A stretch of DNA of 64,000 nt, taken from contig NZ_MRCD01000001.1 of assembly GCF_001904745.1 (NCBI RefSeq), positions 62,001 to 126,000 of the forward strand, given 5' to 3'. Positions 13,748 through 15,684 of the stretch are shown one piece after another. Every line of letters starts with the position of its first letter. Position 1 is the first letter of the stretch. The position numbers were made by a program, and so were the translations under genes. This DNA comes from Calothrix sp. HK-06. GTDB lineage: Bacteria > Cyanobacteriota > Cyanobacteriia > Cyanobacteriales > Nostocaceae. The notes under the pieces are model-generated. The model saw nothing but the letters and a program-made list of their open reading frames with translations, was not told the origin of the DNA and did not search any database.

Positions 13748-13999
13748 GTGATAGAATGTTATCGAAACGCTTCAGAAAACCGCTACATAAAAAATATGAT
13801 AATAGCCGCAGAAATTTTACAACGGGCTTTTCTTCGATTCGATAAATACTTAGAAGAAACAGGGATTACAGCCGACGAATTGGAACTATTGAGCGAAGCA
13901 GAACGAAAATTAAGGCTTGAAAATTACCTCAATAGAGCCACGGTCGCACAAGACAACTTCAATCAAGTCTCTGTACAGCAAGTTGCGCTCAAAAACTGA
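13748..13999 (+). CDS. Small helical protein convergent with the recombinase
   Basis: 83 residues from ATG 13,748, or 67 from ATG 13,796. The body is a charged alpha-helical stretch (LQRAFLRFDKYLEETGITADELELLSEAERKLRLENYL). Its last 90 bases overlap the 3' end of the junction recombinase on the opposite strand. The fdxN element needs extra factors (XisH, XisI) besides XisF, and this protein resembles neither. A helper role is speculation. Confidence 0.4.
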   Translation: MIECYRNASENRYIKNMIIAAEILQRAFLRFDKYLEETGITADELELLSEAERKLRLENYLNRATVAQDNFNQVSVQQVALKN

Positions 14000-15337
14000 C
14001 ATCAGACCCCAAATCTCCGCAGTAAACGTTGTCAGTTGGCGATAACGTTCTATTCTCTCGGTACTTTCTGCTGTTTTCATCTTTTGGCTTTCTTGGAGTA
14101 GAAATAACTGTGTTCTTTTCTTTTCGATAACTTCCCCTAGGTCAGGGTCGTTGATTGCTTCCAGTATTTTAATAGATTTAATCAGCGATTCCATCTCTGG
14201 GCTAGTTTCAATAGGTTCAGGAGTTAATGTAATAACGCTATCGATTATTTTATGGGCATGTTCCAATAAAGCATTTTTGACTTTTTCCTCTAGCACATCT
14301 AGAGAGTTATTGGCGTACTTTGTGTACTCAGGCTTACATCGTTGGTCACGTTCGCGCGCTCTCCTACAACATAGACCTAGTTTATAGGTTCCATCTTTTC
14401 GTTTATATCCAGTTTTTAGTGTCATGACACCACCGCAGTTCTTACACCGCGCAACACCAGAAAGAACATTTAATAATTTATCTGTCGATATCCCTTGTTT
14501 CTTTTTTTTATTAGCTTCGAGGATAGAGCTTATGATTAACCACTCCGCGTCTGTTATCAGTGGTTGATGTTGACCTTCTACAATTATTAATGGTGCAGAC
14601 CTACCAAAACTTAAATACTGAATTTTTCCTCGCAGCATTGCGTTCTCTAGCCAACGTTTAAGGCTATGGGTCACAGGAGCTTTTAAGTGATTTTTACCGT
14701 AATAACTTGGAGGCTCACAATAATAAAGCTTTTTGAACTCAACACAAGCTCTGTCTATTGATTTATACATCAGAAATAAATCAACTAAATGCCGAGCAAC
14801 TTCAAAGTAAGTTTTATTAGACTCAGGGTACAAGTCGCTGTTAGGGCGTATTAAACCATCAATTTTTATATACCCGAAGACAGGTTTGTAGGGTTGTTTT
14901 AACTCACGATGTCTAGCATGTCCAGCTTTGGAATGTGACCGCAGTCTATCCCGGACTTGTGCTGCGAGTGCTGCTTTGATTCGTCCGGTGAACAAACCAT
15001 CGGGTGAATTTAAGTCTAATTCACCGTCTTCTAGGAACCGGAGTTTTACATCATGTTTGTTGAATAACTCCCGTGCTTCTTCCCATTGCTTCGGGTCACG
15101 GGTTAACCTGTCGAAATTTGGTATAACTACCTGCGATACTTGCCCTGCTTTCACAAGATTAAGAACAGCATTCAGCCCTTCGCGGGTAGTAGAAACACCG
15201 GATTCTACATCAAAGAATACCAATTTTTCTGGTATGCCATATTGTAACAAAGCATCGATATATCGTTCTAAAGCATGTCCATCGGTTTGTTGTCTTTGGG
15301 TAGATACGCGACAGTAGCCGATAATTAACTTATCCAC
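13910..15337 (-). CDS. Large serine recombinase (XisF-like) at the coxA junction
   Basis: 475 residues from a GTG at 15,337. The N-terminal resolvase domain has GYCRVST, placing the nucleophile at Ser12, and NFDRLTRD near residue 97. A recombinase domain follows (about 160-270), then a zinc ribbon (CKNCGG near 300, CC and C about 25-40 residues later) and a C-terminal coiled coil. Size and layout fit XisF, which excises the fdxN element in heterocysts (known). Its start lies about 50 bases inside the point where coxA homology ends. It probably recombines the two ends to restore coxA. XisH and XisI are not in this window. Confidence 0.88.
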   Translation of the reverse strand: MDKLIIGYCRVSTQRQQTDGHALERYIDALLQYGIPEKLVFFDVESGVSTTREGLNAVLNLVKAGQVSQVVIPNFDRLTRDPKQWEEARELFNKHDVKLRFLEDGELDLNSPDGLFTGRIKAALAAQVRDRLRSHSKAGHARHRELKQPYKPVFGYIKIDGLIRPNSDLYPESNKTYFEVARHLVDLFLMYKSIDRACVEFKKLYYCEPPSYYGKNHLKAPVTHSLKRWLENAMLRGKIQYLSFGRSAPLIIVEGQHQPLITDAEWLIISSILEANKKKKQGISTDKLLNVLSGVARCKNCGGVMTLKTGYKRKDGTYKLGLCCRRARERDQRCKPEYTKYANNSLDVLEEKVKNALLEHAHKIIDSVITLTPEPIETSPEMESLIKSIKILEAINDPDLGEVIEKKRTQLFLLQESQKMKTAESTERIERYRQLTTFTAEIWGLMSVFERNLLYRDLIEVVLCDRGSIEVIFKP

Positions 15338-15684
15338 AAAGATTCCCTAGAAAACACCAAAGGTATCATATCATGGAACCTATACATCCATATTAATATC
15401 ATTATAGTTCCGTGATTGGTCATGAAAGCGTTGTACAAGTTTGGGTCAAGTACATCGGGGTCGGGAGTAGCTAATTCAGTACGCATTGCCACTGCCATCA
15501 ACCCACCAATCAGATAAAATCCAAATGCAGTAACTAAATACTGTATGCCAATTACCTTGTGGTCAACGTTAAATGTAAAGTAGTCGTGCCATTTCCAAGC
15601 TTTTTGATGAGTGGTGTGGCTAGTAACGACCACATTCTCTGGTTTTTTGCCAGGAGGACTATTTTGTGGAAGTTGTAACGTCAT
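15325..15684 (-). CDS. coxA: Cytochrome c oxidase subunit I, interrupted 5' part
   Basis: The first 99 or so residues match CtaD/CoxA: an N-terminal extension, the [14 protein letters not shown] start of helix I, and TNHGTIMI containing the first haem a His ligand. After TIMILIW, near 15,388, the frame leaves the family and ends at 15,325 inside the recombinase gene. A full protein is about 550-570 residues, so over 80 percent is missing and presumably lies beyond the element, left of the window. Promoter and 5' end are intact, as expected if excision restores the gene. The gap to coxB is 75 bases. Confidence 0.92.
   Translation of the reverse strand: [119 protein letters not shown]
15362..15380. 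promoter_or_regulatory. Candidate recombination half-site at element end
   Basis: An imperfect palindrome (arms GGTATCAT and ATGGAACC, six of eight positions matching) lies just inside the end of coxA homology and just upstream of the recombinase gene. Serine recombinases bind such imperfect inverted repeats around a short core. The true core repeat cannot be fixed without the other end. Confidence 0.4.

Follow-up and report, generated by a model that had tools for sequence, protein, structure and literature searches.

A large serine recombinase element at one fixed codon of the heterocyst oxidase gene coxA2 in Calothrix sp. HK-06: a probable developmental interruption element

Programmed gene repair in heterocysts is a classic phenomenon. 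Is the oxidase gene coxA2 of Calothrix sp. HK-06, which is cut by an element carrying a large serine recombinase (LSR), one of the genes that are repaired, and what would govern the repair? We analysed a window of 64,000 nucleotides (nt) (contig NZ_MRCD01000001.1, positions 62,001 to 126,000; contig positions are prefixed C1 below) with its surroundings, the rest of the genome and the genomes of relatives. Judged from sequence comparison, the insertion is very probably a developmental interruption element able to excise from coxA2, and we infer that it does so in heterocysts. The features that carry this reading are, in window positions:

15397..15684, minus strand: coxA 5' part, 96 codons to the crossover; the gene starts at 15684, the open frame continues to 15325, and 15325-15684 scores 52.6 bits against COX1 (PF00115)
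15395..15396, minus strand: attL crossover core, TT, partner of the attR core at C1:61542-61543
15370..15421, minus strand: attL site, with 25-nt arms flanking the core; the attP dyad scan gives 16/25 arm matches here
13910..15337, minus strand: large serine recombinase (xis), 475 amino acids (aa); PF00239 and PF13408 above cut-off, NF041201 recomb_XisF at 380.2 bits against 375
13796..13999, plus strand: small convergent gene of 67 aa if read from ATG, or 83 aa if read from the GTG at 13748 upstream of it; it overlaps the LSR gene at the latter's 3' end; candidate recombination directionality factor

What has become of the rest of coxA? A preliminary description of this DNA, which recognized the interruption, suggested looking for it beyond the left end of the window and checking it for frameshifts. 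The remainder is indeed there: directly left of the window, which starts at C1:62001, lies C1:60374-61546 (minus strand; COX1 478.7 bits, stop-free), on the same contig and strand as the 5' part, which joins in frame to the frame C1:60149-61579; coxC comes next after the 3' part. The point of exit had been placed at about 15,388, and is corrected here to the TT core at 15395-15396. The element extends from the core at C1:61542-61543 (attR, outside the window) to the core at C1:77395-77396, with 15,853 bp between the cores, and joining at TT rebuilds a 30-residue coxA peptide. The recombinase does sit near the element edge, on the coxA strand, its start codon (15337) lying 58 bases inside the TT core rather than 50 as first given. 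An exact 5-bp direct repeat, TGGAT, is present at both edges, and the genome contains hetR together with a nifH piece and hglE-type pieces, which make the host a heterocyst former by genes alone. The locus combines what characterizes an interruption element: parts that can be joined, a recombinase near one end, a short direct repeat and a heterocyst-forming host.

Could this position be accidental? The LSR was searched for in 217 genomes of the family (E <= 1e-30, at most seven candidates scored per genome; G000 is the genome studied here and other G labels are relatives). Matches were obtained in at least 38 genomes, ten of which, our own included, form one group, with the nine other recombinases 55-61% identical to that of HK-06. 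All nine have a coxA 5' end directly beside the LSR, cut at the same codon as here, and in 10/10 elements the LSR shares the strand of coxA, lies at the 5' edge and starts 50-59 nt past the core; position, strand and offset together are far beyond chance. When coxA2 itself is followed, 5' ends are found in 210/217 genomes (not in the other seven), and the ten cut at this site are exactly the ten with the LSR clade. Among the 210, 193 frames are 536 aa or longer and another five are shortened to other lengths (G062, G082, G185, G188 and G189, a separate second part being seen for G062 and G082); the shortened frames of G080 (469 aa) and G108 (425 aa) are counted apart from both groups. The site is empty, with coxA intact, in five of the six other genomes of the same genus. 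Eight carriers can be named: Calothrix sp. NIES-4101, C. elsteri CCALA 953, C. parasitica NIES-267, Calothrix sp. MO_167.B12, Nostocaceae MO_167.B47, Rivularia sp. MS3, Richelia sp. UBA3308 and Cyanomargarita calcarea. Seven elements are complete, at 1,922, 1,969, 3,066, 10,944, 15,853, 19,400 and 33,453 bp, and the LSR is the only gene of 60 aa or more common to all of them; two more are split over contigs, and that of G169 measures ~984 kb from its coordinates and is probably the nearly 1-Mb coxA element of Calothrix PCC 6303. Further breaks were noticed in three relatives: another LSR at the far end of a ~32-kb coxA2 insert in G062 (its own C1:3663064-3696910), an apparent second break of coxA2 near residue 320 in G190 (C15), besides the TT-site element, and a coxA2 3' part that also ends near residue 320 in G187 (C321), its remainder not seen.

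Where does the recombinase cross over? TT is the sole dinucleotide identical between attL and attR in 10/10 elements (scan over 28 columns, from -12 to +15); offsets 6 and 10 each likewise show a constant single T across the ends of the ten. In the attP reconstructed from the two inner halves, the mean dyad score of the ten elements is 17.1/25 at TT versus 5.0-9.3 at 28 neighbouring centres. The symmetry of attB is weaker, 12.0 at the TT core but 13.7 at centre -6, so that the core could not be located from the symmetry of attB by itself. Inverted arms flanking a 2-bp core common to attP and attB, clear in attP, are the arrangement of a large serine integrase. In coxA2 the attB codons read His-Gly-Thr-Ile-Met-Ile-Phe-Leu-Trp, TT opening the Phe codon of Met-Ile-Phe-Leu-Trp, and Phe-Leu-Trp stands at the crossover place in 29/29 relatives' coxA read (L040-L068, one of them cut elsewhere). 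The direct repeat TGGAT, by contrast, was rejected as the recombination core, because it is not shared by the ends of related elements (attL reads TAA or TAG versus TGG in attR in G184, G032, G083 and G190) and because joining at it would yield M-I-L-I-W, contrary to Phe-Leu-Trp in the 29 relatives. The short direct repeat foreseen in the preliminary description is thus exact in HK-06, but what the ends of the family have in common is TT. Ten elements at one codon in this way define attB, attP and core.

Is the gene perhaps permanently broken by a dead insertion and drifting? The assembly does hold the interrupted form of coxA2 only, and the four other full coxA-type genes of the genome could compensate for its loss. 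Drift is hard to reconcile, however, with coxA parts that contain neither stops nor frameshifts and have low dN/dS: against five copies from the same genus, the interrupted gene has ratios of 0.00-0.10 for the 5' part and 0.02-0.06 for the 3' part, at or below the 0.04-0.12 and 0.03-0.07 of intact pairs (for G083/G032, dS of the 5' part is saturated). By these ratios both parts are under purifying selection. The LSR frame is also intact, with the motif GYCRVS, which we take to be catalytic, its att sites match, and 10/10 same-site elements rebuild nearly the same peptide. A dead insertion is highly improbable in our judgement.

To what kind of recombinase does the enzyme belong? Its Resolvase and zinc-ribbon domains score above cut-off, and the Recombinase domain reaches 20.8 bits against 21.1. 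It had been called XisF-like, which is apt in so far as it just passes the NCBIfam XisF model, but it is only 28% identical to annotated XisF, and the model is broad, since LSRs at nifH and at an hglE-type gene of this genome pass it too. XisF acts at fdxN; this LSR and its nine close relatives are all found in coxA. A scan of viral contigs gave one weak relative of the LSR (35% over 78 residues); with a recombinase of a Nodularia phage it shares 35% identity, and by this likeness the LSR may have a phage source.

What ties the element to heterocysts? Three genes lie beside the interrupted coxA:

15760..16854, minus strand: coxB, upstream of coxA in the same orientation; TIGR02866 at 167.9 bits against a cut-off of 147.7
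17208..17501, minus strand: nif-specific ferredoxin III, the gene first called fdxB; TIGR02936 at 142.2 bits against a cut-off of 80.55
18459..20048, plus strand: iron-sulphur and helix-turn-helix regulator of cnfR/patB type; HTH_3 above cut-off, Fer4 at 19.7 bits against 21.1

The proposed heterocyst gene block with coxB, fdxB and cnfR is borne out by these neighbours, although the name cnfR is our assumption from domain make-up. We presume the interrupted gene to be coxA2 from the adjacent coxB, nif ferredoxin and cnfR-type genes, by comparison with the gene order in Anabaena. According to two papers, coxBAC2 is heterocyst-specific in Anabaena 7120 (PMC4390870, PMC6616624).

How could excision be confined to these cells? 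An LSR-bearing mobile element would have integrated at a fixed attB in coxA2, crossing over at the TT core. Once differentiating heterocysts activate the coxB-coxA' operon, its transcript would read into the LSR gene 58 bases past attL; this distance, with the 13 bases by which the open coxA' frame overlaps the LSR start, leaves little room for a promoter except inside coxA. The LSR, with the small convergent protein as directionality factor, would recombine attL with attR, releasing a 15.85-kb circle and rebuilding coxA2. As excision would separate the LSR from the operon promoter, the reaction would limit itself. Vegetative cells would then be without this oxidase, as had been proposed, but not without every oxidase, as the genome has four more complete coxA-type genes.

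What do the other recombinases of the genome tell us? With 7 of 13 candidates scored, three LSRs were found: one at coxA, one at a truncated nifH and one within an hglE-type gene. The truncated nifH (C78:11000-22000 locus; 6548-6997, minus strand, model positions 1-133 of 275) ends at its LSR (5118-6551, minus strand), behind which lie XisH- and XisI-type genes, the XisI-type assignment resting on a near-identical copy in G062, and ~3.6 kb further on an intact small gene of nifH-element type. These xisH and xisI genes could act in trans on the coxA element. The polyketide synthase gene that we take to be hglE (C1:242000-254000) is split by a ~3-kb LSR element, its pieces matching TIGR02813 at 1-129 and from 129. 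In relatives, more distant LSRs lie, by eye, directly behind a truncated nifH (L020-L024 and L026) or a truncated nifE (L028-L030, L032-L036 and L038; one piece checked with NCBIfam).

Several observations weigh against excision in heterocysts by this route. No transcript, joined coxA or excised circle has been seen, and the assembly has a single copy of the 5' part. There are no xisH or xisI genes, which are needed for fdxN excision, among the element open reading frames (ORFs) scanned. NtcA-type sites (GTA-N8-TAC) number 19 in the window against 16.7 expected, with none at the operon; for want of enrichment we rejected them as a sign of heterocyst control. The purifying selection on coxA may partly be older than a recent insertion. 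In the hglE-type element, which also has a small convergent gene, the LSR is oriented opposite to the gene, which speaks firmly against operon-driven expression as a general rule. Nor need a heterocyst target be general, as the LSRs of two relatives (L031 and L037) adjoin a truncated Mg-chelatase-type gene (PF01078 for L031), which is not a known heterocyst gene.

Might excision have nothing to do with heterocysts? The element could instead behave like an integrative plasmid that moves out of coxA2 and back into it at low rate in cells of any type, the gene being a mere conserved docking site, and the Mg-chelatase-type neighbours fit this account. So does the cargo, whose ParM, ParR-like and primase genes have their nearest relatives on cyanobacterial plasmids:

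10200..12962, minus strand: P4/D5-type primase, 920 aa; PF08706, 48.6% identity over 75% of its length to the primase of a 17.5-kb Nostoc plasmid
6516..7451, minus strand: ParM-type plasmid segregation actin; MreB-like_C above cut-off, ParM and ALP models below
6084..6512, minus strand: probable ParR, the partner of ParM; 39% identity to the gene that follows parM on pCENA543e
2802..4583, minus strand: ATPase-like protein, 593 aa; weak P-loop matches, 25.5% identity to an ATP-binding protein of pCENA543e
1070..1756, minus strand: second, small serine recombinase of resolvase/invertase size, 228 aa; PF00239 at 92.2 bits
1..168, minus strand: start of a GIY-YIG endonuclease gene that continues left to C1:61569 and adjoins attR; PF01541 at 32.9 bits against 22.6

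The best matches of ParM, ~68% identical, are parM genes of Nostoc and Tolypothrix plasmids, and 25/25 plasmid records matched are cyanobacterial by organism name; for the primase the count is 17/18, the remaining record being from Thermaerobacter. The plasmid with the closest primase (NZ_CP091924.1) has an annotated protelomerase-family protein although its record is circular. The ParR-like protein has no match in Pfam, PHROGs or NCBIfam, neither the small serine recombinase nor the GIY-YIG endonuclease is common to the seven complete elements, and there is no relaxase among the 18 proteins scanned, a subset of the ORFs. A phage origin of the cargo was rejected: the primase matches 50 phage records, all below 60% identity, the best 10 of the 50 at 20-27%.

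The history of the element speaks in the same direction as the plasmid-like cargo. In the LSR tree G027 pairs with G169 (support 100/99) and G028 with G000 (100/100), the latter pairing being less sure because both have long branches. The coxA tree, by contrast, places G027 beside G029, in which the gene is intact (99/96), and joins this pair to G028 (87/88), the three being members of one genus. The apparent conflict of the trees and the patchy presence suggest that the element was gained more than once or moved between hosts, that is, repeated acquisition rather than a single ancient domestication. On the other side, the LSRs found in this genome are at coxA, nifH and an hglE-type gene, and no free plasmid form of the LSR was found: at least 5,000 plasmid records matched, all below 60% identity, the best full-length match among those listed being 28%. 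Excision unconnected with heterocysts is, in our view, unlikely, and the developmental interruption element is the reading that we retain.

If so, which component gives the recombinase its direction? Most directionality factors of LSRs are small proteins with little mutual resemblance. A homologue of the small convergent gene stands at the same place in 10/10 same-site elements (46-67 aa), including the two smallest, of 1.92 and 1.97 kb, in which the LSR and the small gene are the only shared genes seen. Outside the overlap with the LSR, five of seven pairs show coding constraint, with dN/dS of 0.04-0.12 (0.029/0.684, 0.036/0.503, 0.067/1.671, 0.032/0.897 and 0.079/0.641); the two pairs left uncounted, G027/G038 and G000/G028 (dN 0.42, dS 3.7), have saturated dS. 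Three of the five counted pairs share G027, G169 and G187, and all five concern other elements, the HK-06 copy being covered solely by the diverged, saturated G000/G028. Between G032 and G083 similarity is nearly equal in the gene (0.83) and in the 100 nt preceding it (0.81), and for this pair constraint shows by codon position only. Shuffling produces a convergent ORF of 40 or more aa in 21.5% of cases (1,292/6,000), which makes the presence of the gene weak evidence at any one locus and its sequence conservation the stronger argument. Upstream, no TCCGGA or NtcA motif occurs within 160 nt in 10/10 elements, while AACARA and CGCTACA-like stretches are conserved in most of the ten. The predicted structure of the protein, three helices with a mean pLDDT of 73, is uninformative. 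By conservation and place, we regard the small gene as a candidate recombination directionality factor.

Its role could also be another. The small gene may be a regulator or a passenger, with direction decided by the LSR unaided or by xisH/xisI from another part of the genome, and we give this alternative not quite an even chance. The protein has no significant match in Pfam or PHROGs, xisH and xisI do stand behind the nifH LSR of the same genome, chance alone makes such ORFs at the rate just given, and the HK-06 copy is backed by the one saturated pair. A passenger would not readily explain, however, why the gene is kept in all ten elements, even where only the LSR accompanies it, or why five close pairs show such low dN/dS outside the overlap. 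A convergent ORF of at least 40 aa adjoins the LSR end at 16 of 22 further LSR loci in the family; by sequence six of these genes are of nifH-element type, six of nifE-element type and one is that at the HK-06 hglE-type gene, and two more copies (at L112, the nifH locus of HK-06, and at L038) lie farther from their LSR. Common ancestry of the coxA-type with the nifH-type and nifE-type small genes is unsupported (hhalign probabilities 4.1 and 0.8%).

What are the implications for heterocyst elements at large? Taken as one package, and held tentatively as it is doubtful that every part of it holds, the LSR elements of heterocysts might each be a two-key switch, in which the promoter of the interrupted gene drives the recombinase and a fast-evolving, tail-to-tail small protein licenses excision. 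The coxA2, nifH, nifE and hglE elements would each have their own version of the two keys, and the coxA2 element would be an integrative plasmid whose free circle partitions by ParM and primes its replication, leaving heterocysts with the released replicon. Should the small gene prove to be the directionality factor, this would answer how excision is controlled in this group. The two ~1.9-kb elements reduce the conserved parts to the LSR and one small gene, and are small enough for E. coli.

How does the element compare with systems already known? A survey with interrupted coxA genes, to which the preliminary description pointed, exists: Hilton, Meeks and Zehr 2016 (PMC4874684) report 101 interruption elements in 22 ortholog groups, three of them in coxA as three variants, mention coxA2 and coxA3 and the nearly 1-Mb coxA element of Calothrix PCC 6303, and refer to a suggestion about XisH/XisI. 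As coxA interruptions are thus in print, the HK-06 element adds a member to a known group, sharing with those coxA elements the split heterocyst gene and the recombinase near the element edge. It differs from them in its genome, and in that the survey's repeats are exact overlaps, which would here give TGGAT and not TT (PMC4874684). The results and discussion of that survey describe no directionality factor or small convergent gene of this kind, and the literature searched at abstract level offers no directionality factor for heterocyst LSR elements; neither a conserved small gene beside the LSR nor plasmid-type cargo came up in those sections or in abstracts on these elements. The fdxN element of Anabaena 7120, with XisF, XisH and XisI, resembles ours in an LSR that passes the XisF model and in its location in a heterocyst gene; it differs in the 28% identity to annotated XisF, the target and the lack of XisH/XisI among the element ORFs scanned here. 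With the free Nostoc and Tolypothrix plasmids (pCENA543e and the plasmid of Nostoc sp. UHCC 0870) the element shares ParM (~68%), the ParR-like protein (39%) and the primase (48.6%), whereas those plasmid records have no match to this LSR on the two stretches compared. The closest parallel in mode of working is found in spore formers as outlined in PMC5025042: skinCd of Clostridioides difficile, which interrupts sigK and has the LSR CD1231 and the 72-aa directionality factor CD1234, and SPbeta, in spsM, with SprA/SprB. These too are LSR-borne elements that interrupt a developmental gene and leave it in the mother cell with the help of a small directionality protein (PMC5025042); phylum and genes are different, and the likeness lies in how the systems would work.

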